Shown: positions 1,045 to 8,483 of the stretch, in pieces
How positions within the stretch are numbered: the first letter of the stretch is position 1
Layout of the letters: each line of letters starts with the position of its first letter
The notes under the pieces: model-generated
Databases searched by the model: none
The model's input: only the letters and a program-made list of their open reading frames with translations
What the model was told of the DNA's origin: nothing
Made by a program: the position numbers and the translations under genes
From: Myxococcales bacterium
Lineage (GTDB): Bacteria > Myxococcota_A > Polyangia > Nannocystales > Nannocystaceae
Direction: 5' to 3'
NCBI GenBank assembly: GCA_014240065.1
Contig: JAAZXR010000028.1
Location: 1-57,815, forward strand
Length of the DNA stretch: 57,815 nucleotides

Positions 1045-1079
1045 AAAAAACCCCGGGAATGAGCCCTACAGAGGGGTTT
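1045..1079 (-). terminator. Probable Rho-independent terminator after the TPR lipoprotein
   Basis: On the minus strand AAACCCC (1073-1079) pairs with GGGGTTT (1048-1054), enclosing a small AGGG/CCC-type hairpin, and six T residues end the structure. The 5' arm overlaps the last codons of the gene at 1066-2352. It would separate that gene from the tRNA-tuf promoter downstream. Confidence 0.5.
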
Positions 1080-2352
1080 GGACCGGGAGGAAGCGCTGGC
1101 GAGCGTCTGAATCGGCACGAGAACGCCCCCACGGACCCGCCGGTTCGATCGCAGCGCGATCTCCGGCGAGATCGGACAGTGGCGCGGTCGGCTTGCCGAT
1201 CGCGGTGTCCCCCGACAACAACACCCCCTGAAGTCGCGCCAGTTTCTCCTCCGTCTCCTCCACGAAGCGATTGTCGTAGCCGAGCCGGGTCGCGGTCTCC
1301 AGATTCTTCTCGAACACCCAAATGGCCTTATTCACCACCGGCCGCAGCTGCAGCTTGAGGGTCTCGTAATACTCCTTTCGCTGCCCGTCATTGAGCCACT
1401 CCGGCACCGGCGCGACCATGAGCGCGTCGTAGAACTCCTCAAATAAGGAGCCAAGCTGCAAGCCAGCCGCGGACACCCAGTACACGTGCTTCGCGCGAAT
1501 CGTGTCGTTGTAGGCCTCTTGGGCCGAGATCAGCAGCGCCAATTTCTTCTCAAAATCGTCCGCCATCCTGGTCTCAGGGAGGCGGATCGGCGCCGCACGA
1601 AATCGGCGGTGGATCACCGCGGCCCGGTAAAAACGAGCCATCCCCACGAAGAAATAGTCGGGCAGACGTTCCTCGTGCTGGGCGCGCTCCAGCATCGGCT
1701 CGGCCTCCTTGAGGATCTGTTCGGCCTGCTCCAACGCGTCGAGTTGATAGTGGGCGTAGGCGCGGCGCACCTCCGCTTCGATTCGCTGCGCGAGCCTCCC
1801 CCCAGAGATCTTTGCGGCGCGATGATACAGCGCCGCCGATTCCTCCCACGCCTCAAGCTCGGCGTGGCACGCCCCCGCCCGCATCCACGCCTCGCGACGA
1901 TACTGCCTCGCCGACGCATCCTCGAGGCGGCCCGCGAATTTTGCCAGCCTCGACCAGGACTCGGACGCTGCCGCGAAGTCCCCAAGTTTCTCATGAGACT
2001 CGGCCACCCCACGGAGCGCCTGAATCCGATCGACTGGGGGGAGGTCGACGCGCCGCAGCACTGACGAGAACTGCACGAGCGCGGCGGGATACTCCCGCGC
2101 GTCGAACGCCCGCGCCCCATCGGCGAGGGTGAAGACGTCCGCCTCCTCCATCGATGGGCCGCTACCACCGGCGCGTCCTGCGGTGGCGGCAGTTGGAGAC
2201 GGAGGCCCGCTTTCGTCGGGCGATCTCTCGCTGCCCTCGGCGCGGGGCGGCGCGGTCGCGCAACCGCCGAGCGCCGCCGCGAACGCGAGCGCACCAGCTC
2301 CTGCCCAGACCGAGCCCCCCCTTCTTCTTAAGCCTCGGTCGACGCGGACCAC
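1066..2352 (-). CDS. TPR-like lipoprotein of unknown function
   Basis: A 428-aa protein starting with GTG. Residues 1-31 form a lipoprotein signal with an Arg-rich n-region, an Ala-rich core and lipobox LGGC (Cys31). A Pro/Ser/Gly-rich linker follows to about residue 65. Residues 75-330 are helical with alternating Ala, Leu and Tyr/Phe, in the style of tetratricopeptide repeats (for example the stretch YPAALVQFSSVLRRVDLPP). The C-terminal 45 residues look disordered. TPR lipoproteins usually bind partners in the periplasm, but no specific partner is suggested here. The downstream neighbour is the tRNA-tuf operon and the upstream one is the HEAT lipoprotein on the same strand, 67 nt away. Confidence 0.75.
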   Translation of the reverse strand: MVRVDRGLRRRGGSVWAGAGALAFAAALGGCATAPPRAEGSERSPDESGPPSPTAATAGRAGGSGPSMEEADVFTLADGARAFDAREYPAALVQFSSVLRRVDLPPVDRIQALRGVAESHEKLGDFAAASESWSRLAKFAGRLEDASARQYRREAWMRAGACHAELEAWEESAALYHRAAKISGGRLAQRIEAEVRRAYAHYQLDALEQAEQILKEAEPMLERAQHEERLPDYFFVGMARFYRAAVIHRRFRAAPIRLPETRMADDFEKKLALLISAQEAYNDTIRAKHVYWVSAAGLQLGSLFEEFYDALMVAPVPEWLNDGQRKEYYETLKLQLRPVVNKAIWVFEKNLETATRLGYDNRFVEETEEKLARLQGVLLSGDTAIGKPTAPLSDLAGDRAAIEPAGPWGRSRADSDARQRFLPVQTPL

Positions 2353-2419
2353 CTCCCCGAGTGTGGCACGTCTCCAGCGTCCGCGCAGGCCGGGAGGACC
2401 GCCCGCGTCTCTTGAGCGG

Positions 2420-4084
2420 CTATCGACCCAGGGTCGCCAACGCGTGGCGCACCTTGATCACTGAGAGCTGGTATTTGGCATTCATCGAGCCCTTCTCGGC
2501 GTCGAGTACCGCCTGCAGATCGTCAGCGCACGACGCACATTCGGCGTGGCGAGCCATGCGTTGGGCGAGCAAGGCCACCGTCGCGCGACCGTCCGGGTTG
2601 TGGACTTTAAATGCCTTCGAGATGGCCGCGGCGGCCTCTCCATCCTCCGGTGCGAGGCGGCTCAACTGCATCGCGGCGACCTCTCGGTTGAACCAGTCAG
2701 CCGAGGCGTCCGTCGCGACCGTCGCGTAGCAGGCGGTGTCTTTCTTGCACTTTTCGAGGGTGTCGATCCCCTTCGCCCAGCCGGATTTTTCCAGGCCCGC
2801 TTTCACGTCTTCGTTCTTGCTCGCCTCCACGAAGGTGGCGCGCAGCATGGGGGCGTCGTCGGAGTTCGCGGCGAGCACGAAGAATCGCGCCCCCTCCCAT
2901 CGCAGCTCGTACTTGTACTCAGGCTTCACGATGGCGTCGTCGCTGTACTCCGCCTTGGTGACCACGTTCGCTAGACACTCCACGGCCTCTTTACCCCCGA
3001 TGTAGCCGAGGGCTTCGGTGATGAAGTCCATGTCGCCCGGGTTTTGTGAAGACAGCGAACACTCGCACAGTGGCGCGACCGCGCTCTCGTCGCCGATGAA
3101 TCCAAGCTGCCGGGCGATGCTCCCACGGAGCGCCCCCGCCTGTGGATCGGGATCCTCCGCCGAGCCGCAGTCGGATCGCGGCATGAACGCGATCAGCGGA
3201 CCCGCCGCGGCGGGGTCGTCGAGGGCGCCCAGGAAACGCGAGTAGATGAGCTTCACAGCGTTGTCGTCGAGCCCCTGATCCGCCGCGAGCTTCAGGGCCT
3301 TCGCGTTCTTGCCCTCGAAGACGTTGAGGACCGCGTCGACCCCCGGCTTACCGAAGCTCACGATCGCCAACATCGAGCGATTGAACACGTCGGTGCTCGA
3401 GGCCGCGTCCGGCAAGCGCAAGGTGGCCAGCACGACCGCGTCGAGCGCCTTCGGATCTTTGAGCTTCCCGAGGGCTCGAATGGCCTCTCGGTGGATGGCG
3501 CGCGGCTGCTCCGCCGCGGGCACCTCGAGCGCCTTGATCAGCACGTCCACCGCCTGCTTGTCCCCCAACTCACCGAGGGTGCGCACGTAGTCGCGTCGGG
3601 CTTGGCCCTCGCGCTCCCCCTTGTCCTTGGAGGGGTTGTCGATGGTCGCGTCGAGCTGCTTGACCAGCGCGGGCACTACGGAGACAGCTTTGGCCTTTCG
3701 CACCCCTTTCAACGCCAGCAGCGCCCCCTTGTAGCCCTCTCCGGTGCCGTCGAGGACGATGGCTTTCTCCCACACCGGCGACGCCGACGCCGAGCCGATG
3801 TCCAAGGCGATCTCAAGCATCTGGAGGCGAGACTCGGGCGCGGTGTCCCAGATCTCCGCGAACGCGGGCATGGCCTTCGCCGCGAAGTCGTCCATTCGCG
3901 CCTGGTCTCCGCTCTGGTGGACCGCCTTGGCGAGCCGCGCGAGCTGACCGAGGGCCAACGCCCGAGACTGGGGCTCCGACAACTTCTCTGTGTGGGTTTC
4001 GATCGCGTTTGGATCTTTTTTGGAGCAACCGGGCGCGCTCGCGAGCGCGGCACAGACGATGGTGAGGGCGGACAGACGACGCAT
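2420..4084 (-). CDS. HEAT-repeat lipoprotein
   Basis: A 554-aa protein from the ATG at 4084. Residues 1-20 form an export signal ending APGC, a slightly non-standard lipobox (Pro at -2). The body is made of repeated helical pairs typical of HEAT/PBS-lyase-like repeats: segments such as VPALVKQLD, DVLIKALEVP, AIRALGKLKDPKALDAVV and PLIAFMP recur. Such proteins act as protein-binding scaffolds; no enzyme motif is visible. The in-frame extension to 4261 lacks a signal and is rejected as the start. The ATG has no Shine-Dalgarno sequence but has TACCAT exactly 6 nt upstream, which suggests a leaderless mRNA. Confidence 0.78.
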   Translation of the reverse strand: MRRLSALTIVCAALASAPGCSKKDPNAIETHTEKLSEPQSRALALGQLARLAKAVHQSGDQARMDDFAAKAMPAFAEIWDTAPESRLQMLEIALDIGSASASPVWEKAIVLDGTGEGYKGALLALKGVRKAKAVSVVPALVKQLDATIDNPSKDKGEREGQARRDYVRTLGELGDKQAVDVLIKALEVPAAEQPRAIHREAIRALGKLKDPKALDAVVLATLRLPDAASSTDVFNRSMLAIVSFGKPGVDAVLNVFEGKNAKALKLAADQGLDDNAVKLIYSRFLGALDDPAAAGPLIAFMPRSDCGSAEDPDPQAGALRGSIARQLGFIGDESAVAPLCECSLSSQNPGDMDFITEALGYIGGKEAVECLANVVTKAEYSDDAIVKPEYKYELRWEGARFFVLAANSDDAPMLRATFVEASKNEDVKAGLEKSGWAKGIDTLEKCKKDTACYATVATDASADWFNREVAAMQLSRLAPEDGEAAAAISKAFKVHNPDGRATVALLAQRMARHAECASCADDLQAVLDAEKGSMNAKYQLSVIKVRHALATLGR

Positions 4085-4339: not shown

Positions 4340-4987
4340 CTAGGAGCGGCGGCTCGCCTTGCGCTTGCCGCGTGCGGGGACCTTGGCCCGGGTCCGTTTC
4401 TTGGCGGCTTTCTTCTTGGCCGCCTTCTTGGGCGCCTTCTTCGCCACCCGCCCCCGCGCAGTCTTTTGTCCCGCACGAAGATCGGAGTGGGTCACGACCA
4501 GGGTGCGCTCTTCATCGCTCGCCCCCGAAGTCGCGACCGATGATTTCGCCTTCGTCGTCGTCCGGGTGGTCGGGCGAGAGACGGACTTGGCGCGGGACGA
4601 GGTCCGCTCGCGGGACGAGCGGGCGCGGGAGACACCGGACGAGCGGGTGAACCCTTCCGACGCGGCGCTGTGCACTTGTCCGCGGACCGCCGCCCCCTCG
4701 GCCATCGACAGCACCCCCCCCTTGACGTTCCCTACCACCCGCGCAGTGGACGTGAGGATCACCGCTTCTTGCGCGGTCACGTCACCGACAACGACGCCTG
4801 AGACCTCAACGCGATGCGCCTGCACCGTCGCCTCGACGACGGCGTCCGCGCCCACGAAGAGCCCTCCTGCGAGACGGATATCCCCCTCGACGCGTCCTTC
4901 GATGTGCAGGTCCTCTTCGCCTTCGATGCGGCCGCGTACGGTCGTCCCGGCGTCGATGACTGCGATATGTTTTTGCCCTGAGCGCAT
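4340..4987 (-). CDS. Bactofilin with histone-H1-like basic tail
   Basis: A 215-aa protein. Residues 5-112 are a bactofilin (DUF583) beta-helix, seen as repeated short V/I-G-x-V-x-G strands such as GRIEGEEDLHIEGRVEGDI. Bactofilins polymerise without nucleotide into cytoskeletal filaments that position cell-wall or chromosome-segregation machinery. Residues 113-170 are a Ser/Arg/Thr-rich linker and residues 176-215 are extremely Lys/Arg/Ala-rich (KKAPKKAAKKKAAKKR), like histone H1 tails. It is the last of three bactofilin genes, 16 nt after the second. By analogy with BacNOP of Myxococcus xanthus, where one member has a basic C-terminus, the tail may bind a partner or DNA; that is inference. 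Confidence 0.9.
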   Translation of the reverse strand: MRSGQKHIAVIDAGTTVRGRIEGEEDLHIEGRVEGDIRLAGGLFVGADAVVEATVQAHRVEVSGVVVGDVTAQEAVILTSTARVVGNVKGGVLSMAEGAAVRGQVHSAASEGFTRSSGVSRARSSRERTSSRAKSVSRPTTRTTTKAKSSVATSGASDEERTLVVTHSDLRAGQKTARGRVAKKAPKKAAKKKAAKKRTRAKVPARGKRKASRRS

Positions 4988-5003
4988 CGTGTGGTTCTCG
5001 CGA

Positions 5004-5318
5004 TCAGTTCGTCATGTCCACGCTGCCACGATACGAGGCGCCCTTGGCGATCTCGACGTTCGACGCCTGGATGTCACCGGTCACGCGAGCCTCCGGCGTA
5101 AGTTCGGCCGACTCTTCCGCCTGGATGTCGCCGGTCACGCTCCCGGCCACGGCGACGCTGTTCGCCTCGACGTTGGCTTCGAGTGTCCCCTCTCGCTCCA
5201 CGGCGAGGTGGCCGTCGACGCTGACGCGCCCTTTAACAGTGCCGAGCACGACGACGTCGTCACTCCCGGTCACCTCTCCGTCGATGACGATACTATTGCC
5301 GATTACGGTTCCACTCAT
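5004..5318 (-). CDS. Bactofilin, short form
   Basis: A 104-aa protein consisting almost only of the bactofilin beta-helix: repeated motifs VIDGEVTGSDDVVVLGTVKG, VEANSVAVAGSVTGDI and VTGDIQASNVEI. The start at 5318 is chosen because AAGGAGA lies 5 nt before this ATG and because the protein then begins, as its family does, with the first beta-strand. The longer in-frame reading from 5417 overlaps the preceding gene and adds nothing homologous. It sits 73 nt after the first bactofilin and is probably co-transcribed and co-polymerised with its neighbours. Confidence 0.9.
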   Translation of the reverse strand: MSGTVIGNSIVIDGEVTGSDDVVVLGTVKGRVSVDGHLAVEREGTLEANVEANSVAVAGSVTGDIQAEESAELTPEARVTGDIQASNVEIAKGASYRGSVDMTN

Positions 5319-5391
5319 GATGTCTCCTTGAAATGCGTTGGTGCTCCAAAAATCTGTTGCGTCGCCCGCGAGAGATGCCTCGGACTCCCCA

Positions 5392-5760
5392 CTACCGCAG
5401 CCGCCCTCGACCGACATCCGCCGGGAGAGGAACTTCCATGTCGATGGTCCCGTCGATGATCGCGCCGTCTCGCACGATCACTCGAGGAGCGCGGACGGTC
5501 CCAGTCACGCGCGCCCCTCGGTCCAAAACGATTCGGTCGCTGGCCACGAGGACTCCGGCGACCGTGCCTGCGACCTCGGCGCTCGTCACATGAGCTTCGG
5601 CGTCGAGCAGCGCGCCGTCGGTGACGGTCAGATGCCCCGTCAACGCGAGCTGTCCCTCGAGCTTCCCTTCGACCGTGAGGTCTTCATTTCCGCTCAGATG
5701 ACCGCGGACCTCTGTGTGACTTGCGAGGACCGTTGGGAGTGTGCGTGAGGAGCCGGGCAT
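5392..5760 (-). CDS. Bactofilin, first gene of the triplet
   Basis: A 122-aa protein with a single DUF583 beta-helix (residues 10-112; repeats such as VRGHLSGNEDLTVEGKLEG and VAGTVAGVLVASDRIVLDRG). It has short flanks and no membrane segment, so it should be cytoplasmic and filament-forming. It ends 73 nt before the second bactofilin. An intrinsic-terminator-like hairpin stands just 17 nt upstream of the ATG, so expression may be attenuated or the gene may follow an unannotated RNA. No clear Shine-Dalgarno sequence is seen before this ATG. Confidence 0.9.
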   Translation of the reverse strand: MPGSSRTLPTVLASHTEVRGHLSGNEDLTVEGKLEGQLALTGHLTVTDGALLDAEAHVTSAEVAGTVAGVLVASDRIVLDRGARVTGTVRAPRVIVRDGAIIDGTIDMEVPLPADVGRGRLR

Positions 5761-5773
5761 GAACGTGCGCTTT

Positions 5774-5801
5774 CAAAAAAGCGGGCACCGAGGCGCCCGC
5801 C
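5774..5801 (-). terminator. Intrinsic terminator or attenuator before the bactofilin genes
   Basis: On the minus strand GCGGGC, an 8-nt loop (GCCTCGGT) and GCCCGC are followed by TTTTTT. It has the form of a Rho-independent terminator. The ATG of the first bactofilin follows 13 nt after the T-run. There is no recognised minus-strand gene upstream. Confidence 0.6.
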
Positions 5802-6247
5802 AACTTGCATGGGCAGGCTAACAACGCGGCTACAGACCGGTCAAGACGCATCGACACCCGACGAACCTGTCCACAGGCGGTGCGCCGGCACACGCCACCA
5901 CCCTCGTCCGGCCTCGCCGCTTCGAGCACTGCCGGACAGACGGACGCCCACGCCTGAACTGCCCCACATCGGCGCCCGTGCGACGATCCGGCCGGGACCC
6001 GCCGCGCCGAACCCCGCCGGTCGTGGCGGCGATCCCGGTGAGGTGACGACGCGCACTGACACCGGCCTATCGAACGGGACCGTCGCCGCTCATCGCCCCG
6101 TTTGGGCCGTTTGCGCCCTCCTGCGGGCGCGGCGAGCCCGCGGGCGTAGGCGGCCGTCCCATGACTCTAGGCCCAAGCTGCCCTCAAAGAATGTCGATTT
6201 TCGGTTTTTGGATGCTAAGACCCCATCGACGCCGAGCGCTTAACGCC
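5802..6247. other. Intergenic region without recognised gene
   Basis: About 450 nt between divergent genes: the bactofilins to the left and glutamate-cysteine ligase to the right. It must hold both promoters. Reading frames here have no family signature. The minus strand was checked by eye for RNase P, SRP, tmRNA and 6S hallmarks and none was found. The terminator at 5774-5801 leaves room for a small RNA on the minus strand. Confidence 0.4.
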
Positions 6248-7669
6248 GTGAACCGAGTCACCAAACCCCCTGGCGGAGGCCCCTCTCCCCTCAAACCCAA
6301 CCAACTCGTGGAGTGGTTCGAGGACGCCTGCAACGAGGGTCCTCAGCTCATTGGGACCGAGCACGAGAAGTTTGGAGTCGCGTTTGACGCGGATCGCGGC
6401 GCCTTCACGCCGATCGATTATGAGCACCACGTGCGACCAATGCTCGCCGACCTCGTCGCACGGCACGGTTGGGCCGTGGGAGCGGACCGGGGGACCGCGG
6501 GCGAGATCGTGGCGCTCTCGCGGGACAACGCCTCGGTCACGCTCGAGCCCGGCGGGCAGCTCGAACTGTCTGGGGCGCCGTTTCGAACGATCCACGAGAC
6601 CTGCGCCGAGTTCTCCGCGCACCAAGGGGAGCTCGACGATGTCGCCCGGCGCCATGGCGTCACGCTCATCGCCTCCGGGTTTCATCCGTTCGCGACCCGA
6701 GAAGAGATCCACTGGATGCCCAAGGGGCGCTACGGGGTGATGCGCGAGTATCTCCCCACCCGAGGCGCCCGAGCGCTCGACATGATGACCCGCACCGCGA
6801 CGGTGCAAGCCAACTTTGACTACAAGAACGAGCTCGACTGTGGCCGACGTCTGCGGCTCGCGGCCTCACTCACCCCCGCCCTCGTGGCGATGTTCGCAAA
6901 CTCCCCTTACCGTGACGGCCTGCACCACGGCGTGCGCTCAGAGCGTTCGGCCGTGTGGGAGGAGGTCGATCCAGACCGCTGCGGGCTGCTCGATATCCTC
7001 TTCGATGAGGACTTTTCCTTCGGCAAGTACGCGCTGTGGGCCCTCGAAATTCCGATGTTTTTCGTGAAGAGATCCGGCCGCTATCTCCCTTACCACGGCA
7101 CCTTCTCCCGCTTCATTGAGGACGGTATGATCCTCGAGGACGGCTCCACCACCCGGCCCACGGAGGCGGATTGGCGGCTCCACCTCAACACCTTGTTCCC
7201 GGAGGCTCGCCTCAACCCCTTCATCGAGCTGCGGACCCCTGACTCCGTCGACCGAGACCTCATCTGCGCGCTCCCGGCGTTCGCGAAGGGGCTGTTGTAC
7301 GACGACGACGCGTTGAGCGAGGCGCTCGAGCTGACCCGTGGACGAACGCTTGAACAGCGTCGCGAGGCGTGGCGGACCGCGCGAACCGCCGGCCTCGGCG
7401 CGCCCGATTTGCTGGCCGAATGCCTCAAGCTGCTAGAGATCTCCGAGCGAGGGCTCACGCGCATCGCCGCCCGCGACAACTTGGCAGAAGATGAGACGAA
7501 GTTCATGGCCCCGTTGCGCGCCCGCGTCGACGCCGGGCGCAGCCCCGCCGACGAGGCGCTCGAGACGCTCGGAACTTCGCCGGCGCCGGGGGGCCGCGCG
7601 AGCGGCGTCGCCAAGCTCACGCGCCACTACTACTACGCCGGCGCCTACCCCAACGAAGCGCTCTCTTGA
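6248..7669 (+). CDS. gshA: Glutamate-cysteine ligase, plant/alphaproteobacterial type
   Basis: A 473-aa member of the GCS2 family, which joins glutamate to cysteine with ATP in the first step of glutathione synthesis. Diagnostic segments are IGTEHEKFG, LEPGGQLELSG, the ATVQANFDY block, SPYRDG, and the C-terminal LNPFIELRTPDS. The protein ends YYYAGAYPNEA. The GTG at 6248 is preferred because homologues begin about 15 residues before the LVEWF segment, but Met codons at 6161, 6191 and 6212 are in frame and no Shine-Dalgarno sequence decides. No gshB is in the window, so the product could serve glutathione or another gamma-glutamyl thiol. Confidence 0.92.
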   Translation: MNRVTKPPGGGPSPLKPNQLVEWFEDACNEGPQLIGTEHEKFGVAFDADRGAFTPIDYEHHVRPMLADLVARHGWAVGADRGTAGEIVALSRDNASVTLEPGGQLELSGAPFRTIHETCAEFSAHQGELDDVARRHGVTLIASGFHPFATREEIHWMPKGRYGVMREYLPTRGARALDMMTRTATVQANFDYKNELDCGRRLRLAASLTPALVAMFANSPYRDGLHHGVRSERSAVWEEVDPDRCGLLDILFDEDFSFGKYALWALEIPMFFVKRSGRYLPYHGTFSRFIEDGMILEDGSTTRPTEADWRLHLNTLFPEARLNPFIELRTPDSVDRDLICALPAFAKGLLYDDDALSEALELTRGRTLEQRREAWRTARTAGLGAPDLLAECLKLLEISERGLTRIAARDNLAEDETKFMAPLRARVDAGRSPADEALETLGTSPAPGGRASGVAKLTRHYYYAGAYPNEALS

Positions 7670-7694: not shown

Positions 7695-8483
7695 TCAAAG
7701 ATCGAGATCGAGGTCGAGCTCGTCGAGGTCGCTGAGATCGTCACGCCGTTTCTCGGCCACCTCCGATTCACTCTCTCGCACCGTGACAGGATCCGCGCCT
7801 CGCTCGCTCCGCTCCCGCTTCGCCTCACGCTCGCTGCGAACCTCGGTCCCCGCCGCCTCGATCATCTCGTCGAGTTCTTGATCGAGCTCTTGGTCGAGTC
7901 CGCTGAGATCTTCGAAGTCTTCGAAATCCTCGAGCCCTCCGAGGTCCTCATCGACAGACGCCGCGGCTTCATCTGACTCGACCTCCGCGGCTTCATCTGA
8001 TTCGGGAGCGGGAGCGGCCGCCTCTCCCTCGCTGGCCTCGTCGTCGATCTCTTCGATCTCTTCGATCTCTTCGATCTCCTCGATCTCCTCGATCTCCTCG
8101 ACCTCCTCGATCTCCAAGTCCACCTCAATGGACTCGTCATCATCGATCGCGGAAGGAGCCCCGCGCTCCGCCGCTACCTCCGGCTGGCTGCTCGCCCGCG
8201 CCTTTTCTCGCGCCTTCTTGCGCGCCTCGATGCGGGCTCGCTCCTCCTCCACCGCGGCGTCCTGCCCTTCTCTCCGCCGACGTCTGCGAGCGTCTCGACG
8301 CTCGCTGTCCGAGGAGCGCTTCCCGCCCGACCTGGAGGACGTCGACAGCCTCACCGAGGACAAGCCCTCTCCTTTGAGTAACCCGAGAAGCTGCGGATCG
8401 TCGATGTCGGCCGCGATCTCGTCCGCGTGGTCCCTGGCCCAACTTAGTAGCGCTTCGGTGCTCATTTCCTGGGAGTCAGACAC
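7695..8483 (-). CDS. Acidic low-complexity protein with Glu-Glu-Ile repeats
   Basis: A 262-aa protein of unknown function. The N-terminal 40 residues look like a small helical domain (STEALLSWARDHADEIAAD). Residues 50-105 are strongly basic (Arg/Lys/Ser), residues 112-215 strongly acidic with an (EEI)n run, and the end is DLDELDLDLDL. The result is a polyampholyte, probably disordered. The GTG start has GAGAGG 8 nt upstream. The acidic run is encoded by a 9-bp tandem repeat (8044-8115), so copy number may vary between strains. It lies downstream of alaS on the same strand and converges on gshA. Confidence 0.7.
   Translation of the reverse strand: MSDSQEMSTEALLSWARDHADEIAADIDDPQLLGLLKGEGLSSVRLSTSSRSGGKRSSDSERRDARRRRRREGQDAAVEEERARIEARKKAREKARASSQPEVAAERGAPSAIDDDESIEVDLEIEEVEEIEEIEEIEEIEEIEEIDDEASEGEAAAPAPESDEAAEVESDEAAASVDEDLGGLEDFEDFEDLSGLDQELDQELDEMIEAAGTEVRSEREAKRERSERGADPVTVRESESEVAEKRRDDLSDLDELDLDLDL
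8044..8115. repeat. Eight tandem copies of a 9-bp unit
   Basis: Units TCGATCTCT (x3) and TCGATCTCC (x5, one with T to C) run head to tail without interruption inside the acidic protein gene, encoding Glu-Glu-Ile on the minus strand. Such units can gain or lose copies without a frameshift. Confidence 0.9.

Follow-up and report, generated by a model that had tools for sequence, protein, structure and literature searches.

What a bactofilin filament might hold with the long, strongly basic tail of one of its subunits is the question raised by this locus. The window, that is, the whole stretch of 57,815 nucleotides that was analysed, had been described in a first-pass annotation as encoding three tandem bactofilins of 122, 104 and 215 residues, and this was borne out. 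The three genes lie on the minus strand within positions 4340-5760: the first bactofilin is in the BacN position (122 residues; 5392..5760), which is kept in relatives, the second in the BacO position (104 residues; 5004..5318) and the third in the BacP position (215 residues; 4340..4987). All three proteins match the Bactofilin family PF04519 over its full domain and above the curated cut-off of 27.9 bits, with E-values of 6.3e-20, 8.6e-24 and 5e-23, respectively. For the second protein a start giving 104 residues was adopted, which matches relatives; the mechanical open reading frame (ORF) starts further upstream and has 137 residues. The spacing is tight, with 26 bases of overlap between mechanical ORFs 1 and 2 and 16 bases between ORFs 2 and 3. 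With the adopted start, the gap between the first and second genes turns positive.

The third protein is predicted to have the β-helix fold of a bactofilin. The β-helix core comprises about residues 8-107 of the AlphaFold2 model (block mean pLDDT of 95-98 over residues ~11-100), and the nearest solved structures, found with Foldseek, are the bactofilins 2n3d, 6rib and 6ria. A 366-residue ORF (4359-5459, plus strand) runs antisense to the second and third bactofilin genes and is most likely a by-product of the high GC content.

The likeness to the BacN-BacO-BacP set of Myxococcus xanthus (Lin et al. 2017, PMC5703909), to which the first-pass annotation had pointed, holds for the tandem N-O-P order and for the long disordered C-terminal extension of the third protein. 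It extends to a fourth bactofilin elsewhere in the genome and to the presence of ParA and ParB. The fourth bactofilin is here on another contig (G000:C44) of the 4.7 Mb genome, which is assembled in 235 contigs and is 97.67% complete. As read by eye, this gene (L080, 9443-9829) is just upstream of F-ATPase genes and not beside parAB; bacM of M. xanthus is described as adjoining parAB (PMC5703909). The statement that no par gene is adjacent to the triad is correct for ParB, because the only ParB-domain match of the genome (ParB_N, E 4.1e-34) is on yet another contig (G000:C110). Next to this ParB gene is an ORF whose likeness to ParA was recognised solely by inspection of its Walker sequence, and the genome has the ParA and ParB components of a BacNOP-PadC-ParABS system.

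The tail of the third bactofilin (about residues 110-215; 4340..4660, minus strand) is predicted to be disordered along its ~105 residues (AlphaFold2, pLDDT about 44-61) and has a net charge of +28. It had been described as a Lys/Ala/Arg-rich tail of about 40 residues, which is right for the composition, found in the last ~45 residues, but not for the length. The last 45 residues have a net charge of +22, and the maximum among 43 non-overlapping ORFs of the window is +9, a set from which the third bactofilin itself is missing, since greedy selection had taken the antisense ORF in its stead. Two motifs are recognisable in the tail. The internal one, ASDEERTLVVTHSDL (4478..4522), is somewhat degenerate relative to the family consensus [DE][DE][DE]xTVVV[KR]HAxL, and the second is a terminal basic peptide, RTRAKVPARGKRKASRRS (4343..4396), which is conserved in the family. 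The internal motif, with acidic residues followed by T-V-V-V, resembles threonine-phosphorylation sites used in kinase/FHA docking; it might act as a switch that regulates the arm. The SAP domain PF02037 was found by Pfam neither in the window protein nor in 18 family members. An AT-hook or other known DNA-binding domain was rejected as a candidate, since a Pfam search of these 18 proteins at E-values up to 1 gave Bactofilin and chance-level matches (Ribosomal_S3_C at 0.039 in two proteins, AdHead_fibreRBD at 0.057 and CoV_nucleocap at 0.16).

Conservation was examined in 59 genomes, the window's own included, 28 of the others belonging to the same family. The triad is present in 25 of these 28; the three in which it was not found are 54% (G001, the only congener), 65% (G017) and 89% (G018) complete. 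Since the contig ends within the third gene in two of the 25 (L012 and L018), the complete third genes number 24 with that of the window (those listed among L005-L030, together with L077 and L082). That the tail might be missing from close relatives, a concern of the first-pass annotation, is not the case: the tail and the terminal peptide are found in all 24. The pattern for this count was written once the sequences had been seen, so that a leave-one-out profile is the fairer test; it placed the terminal peptide within 4 residues of the C-terminus in 19 of 19 tails. The motif searches were made with these 19 tails, five near-copies of L022 (L023, L024, L025, L029 and L030) having been left out. 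The internal motif has an LLR of 539, compared to 250 ± 6 in 20 sets of shuffled tails; by pattern, this DDxTVVVKHAxL motif is present in 15 of the 24 complete genes. The terminal peptide, with the consensus RVPARGKRKVxRR, has an LLR of 414, compared to 212 ± 5 in 20 shuffles, the internal motif having been masked first. The best further motif, located between the core and the internal motif, is much weaker (261 vs 230 ± 6 in shuffles). Pattern searches of all other ORFs, in the window and in 20 fetched stretches, matched neither tail motif; the patterns also miss some third bactofilins.

These scores bear on one rival view of the tail, namely that it is low-complexity drift of a GC-rich genome and has no function beyond solubility or spacing. 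The length of the tail does vary greatly, from 85 to 202 residues among the 19 compared. However, both motifs score many standard deviations above the shuffled sets and the position of the terminal peptide is fixed, and drift is considered very improbable. The description of the tail as 'H1-like' did not survive the comparison. The window's own tail contains six AKK/KKA units and in its AKKA-type basic repeats is like the tails of HupB and linker histone H1; HupB tails with PAKK/KAAK repeats are reported to stabilise DNA binding (both in passages of PMC5676037). Unlike in those proteins, the repeats are not conserved in the family: at least two units are found in 8 of the 24 members, and one or none in the other 16. 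Furthermore, the window's tail sits on a filament-forming core and not on a DNA-binding core.

In M. xanthus the C-terminal fragment of BacP binds PadC with a KD of 340 nM, and ParA binds this fragment only via PadC (passages of PMC5703909). For the KKKVVVKK motif in the tail of BacP, a possible role in PadC binding is mentioned in another report (PMC12448750). The window's genome differs from M. xanthus in having no padC, either downstream of the bacP position or elsewhere, and its third bactofilin ends in RAKVPARGKRKASRR where Myxococcus BacP has KKKVVVKK. No motif of the latter type is present in the window's tail, whose terminal sequence was read for it, and Myxococcus relatives end in such a sequence. 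ParB_N (PF02195) was rejected as the sole detector of PadC. True PadC proteins match it only with E-values of 8e-5 to 9e-4, below the cut-off, and a profile built from 16 PadC sequences was therefore used instead; it gave E-values of 1e-83 to 1e-114 in three control genomes. A Myxococcus PadC protein matches the solved PadC-type chain 6ryk, that of M. xanthus PadC, with an E-value of 1e-108. The profile had no match in the window's genome (97.67% complete, as given above). In the other 28 genomes of the family nothing convincing was found, the one match being weak and partial (4.8e-5, in G026) and distant from the triad of that genome. Matches of 3e-12 to 1.5e-4 were obtained in 8 further genomes, from other families of the class, none of these matches being on a contig with a listed triad. 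The PadC route implied by the comparison with Myxococcus is thus unavailable here, and, because PadC is absent, the way from the bactofilins to ParA that operates in Myxococcus is closed.

PadC was observed beside bacP only in the Myxococcus-Anaeromyxobacter lineage. Of the named loci of relatives of BacP, 35 in all, 26 have a recognisable PadC, among them those of Myxococcus dinghuensis, Archangium, Hyalangium and Anaeromyxobacter, and in 25 of the 26 the locus also contains a triad or pair. The phmmer search with PadC over loci L005-L120 hit these 26 loci, all of them among the named BacP loci. Of the nine named loci without PadC, seven are cut near the gene or are fragmentary (L086, L092, L099, L104, L105, L112 and L118); L119 has less than 1 kb downstream, with no PadC recognised there, and L117 has room downstream, yet no PadC. 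Endings of the KKKVVVKK type track PadC imperfectly. Two genomes of family f34 combine such an ending with a distant PadC-like match at another place (E 4e-15 and 9e-16), and L117 and L119 have such endings with weak PadC matches only (3.7e-6 and 8.8e-4), which are near a bactofilin and look like ParB. One metagenome bin placed in the window's class contains a BacP that is very like that of the Myxococcaceae (L031, the same contig as L086; best segments 62-85% identical). This BacP is cut by the contig end and the bin gave no PadC match; the contig is possibly a contaminant or the result of transfer.

The gene order around the triad is conserved. In a sample of 20 fetched stretches, 12 of which are from other family members with the triad and the rest from other groups or from the same genome, a gene for a HEAT-repeat protein (PF03130, PF13646; 2420..4084, minus strand) is found downstream in 11, and one for a protein with a weak TPR match (PF07719, E 0.0014, below the cut-off; 1066..2352, minus strand) in 8. 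A divergent glutamate-cysteine ligase family 2 gene (PF04107, E 2.7e-53; 6239..7669, plus strand) is upstream in 12. These neighbours differ from those of the triad in M. xanthus, the HEAT and TPR-like genes being downstream here. Both of the latter encode lipoprotein-like N-termini, as judged by eye, and this succession of two lipoprotein-like genes (1066-4084, minus strand) follows the triad in most of the family stretches fetched.

Because the terminal peptide has a defined sequence and because BacP works in this way in Myxococcus, the main rival to a DNA client is a specific protein client. The basic peptide would then dock ParA, ParB, a partner of SMC or an adaptor standing in for PadC, and this protein would provide the only contact with DNA. 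The PadC affinity and the KKKVVVKK motif of BacP are precedents, the internal motif is likewise of defined sequence, and genes for ParA and ParB exist in the genome. Against this, there is no candidate adaptor beside the triad, where the conserved neighbours are the two lipoprotein-like genes and housekeeping genes, and PadC itself was not found in the profile search. A protein client is a substantial possibility, somewhat less likely than DNA.

Another class of the phylum provides some clues to what such an arm can carry. The proteins of family f24 are like that of the window in being the third of three tandem bactofilins and in having a disordered linker with a nucleic-acid-type module at the C-terminal end; they differ in that a SAP domain (PF02037) occupies the place of the basic peptide. 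This domain ends the third bactofilin in 14 of the 14 genomes scanned with Pfam, above the cut-off (E 5e-9 to 6e-13), and was found in neither of two third bactofilins from other families in the same scan. The set contains 21 genomes of f24; in three of the remaining ones the third gene is cut by a contig end (G073, G088 and G145), two were not resolved (G136 and G138), one gave no match (G143) and one has the same ending by eye (G078). The SAP part is predicted to be a helix-loop-helix, with the helices around the loop. Its best Foldseek matches are the SAP domain of Tho1 and 1h1j, an entry whose title names an S/MAR DNA-binding SAP domain, with probabilities of 0.97-0.99; the E-values are 0.19 or worse, as expected at ~40 residues. 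3'hExo and Rho are also among the matches. SAP domains are binders of either DNA or RNA; those of f24 look close to neutral in charge by eye, so that a single copy may bind only weakly, and many copies would be present along a filament.

The SAP-bearing gene is regarded as an orthologue on the grounds of gene order, because the tree of the bactofilin cores does not join the f24 P sequences with the other P sequences. In this tree, built on ~107 columns, all 27 O-position sequences are on one side of a branch with support of 96/99. The N and P sequences do not form single groups, and gene position takes 4 changes compared to 38.5 in shuffles. The view that N, O and P are old, position-specific paralogues is only roughly supported by this tree.

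The explanation that we prefer, with something short of even confidence, is that the tail is a client-binding arm and that its client is most likely chromosomal DNA, which it would contact directly. By homology, the three bactofilins would co-polymerise like their Myxococcus counterparts, and the arms would stand out along the filament, so that many copies of the basic end could bind a client. If this client is the chromosome, weak polyvalent contacts would tether the filament to the nucleoid, and the internal TVVV motif would serve as a second site, for docking or for regulation. The arm of the Myxococcus lineage would instead have been fitted to the adaptor PadC, and in f24 a SAP domain would have taken the place of the basic peptide. 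DNA is judged the most likely client because the corresponding end elsewhere is a domain of nucleic-acid-binding type and because the peptide is strongly basic. The direct link between filament and nucleoid suggested in the first-pass annotation is possible, and the SAP domains at the same place in another class make it more plausible. They show what the arm can carry and not what the window's arm does, since their bearers belong to a different class.

Several observations speak against DNA as the client. Bulk positive charge is not conserved: the charge of the whole tail is nearly neutral in a subgroup, only +3 to +5 in 6 of the 24 family members (L022-L025, L029 and L030), and that of the last 45 residues is -3 in L077. 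With its defined sequence, the terminal peptide resembles a motif for docking proteins more than it does a generic coat for DNA. SAP-like folds, moreover, can bind RNA as well, as in 3'hExo and Rho, and the tree of the cores leaves the third bactofilins of f24 apart from the others.

Basic peptides bind anionic membranes, and the basic end of the tail might accordingly bind acidic phospholipids and anchor the filament to the membrane. Bactofilins are typically membrane-associated according to part of one report (PMC12448750), but the same source gives the membrane binding of BacA as dependent on an N-terminal peptide. Replacement by a SAP domain in f24 has no obvious membrane meaning either, and anchoring to the membrane is thought unlikely.

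Extended to the Myxococcota as a whole, the preferred reading of a DNA-binding arm would imply that the third bactofilin tethers the filament to the nucleoid, by a basic peptide here and by a SAP domain elsewhere, and that PadC was added later, as an adaptor in the Myxococcus lineage, to an older, PadC-free link of cytoskeletal polymer and chromosome. This generalisation is considered less likely than not. There are few systems in which it is known how the chromosome is held by bacterial polymers, and PadC is the link between bactofilins and chromosome segregation that has been worked out in Myxococcus. As PadC was not found in the family, either another link exists there or the triad does something else. 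The triad of the window is of the BacNOP type, without PadC and with its own terminal motif. The SAP-tailed bactofilin seems to be undescribed: no account of a bactofilin together with a SAP domain was found in the literature searched, largely at the level of abstracts. These proteins permit a direct experiment, since nucleic-acid binding is clearly predicted for a SAP domain and the domain can be cleanly deleted.

Two smaller features were observed near the triad. A 262-residue protein (7695-8483, minus strand), which has no Pfam match, contains a run of EEIEEIEEI repeats. A GC-rich hairpin followed by TTTTT (5780-5801, minus strand) lies shortly before the start of the first bactofilin gene and could be a leader attenuator or the end of something else.
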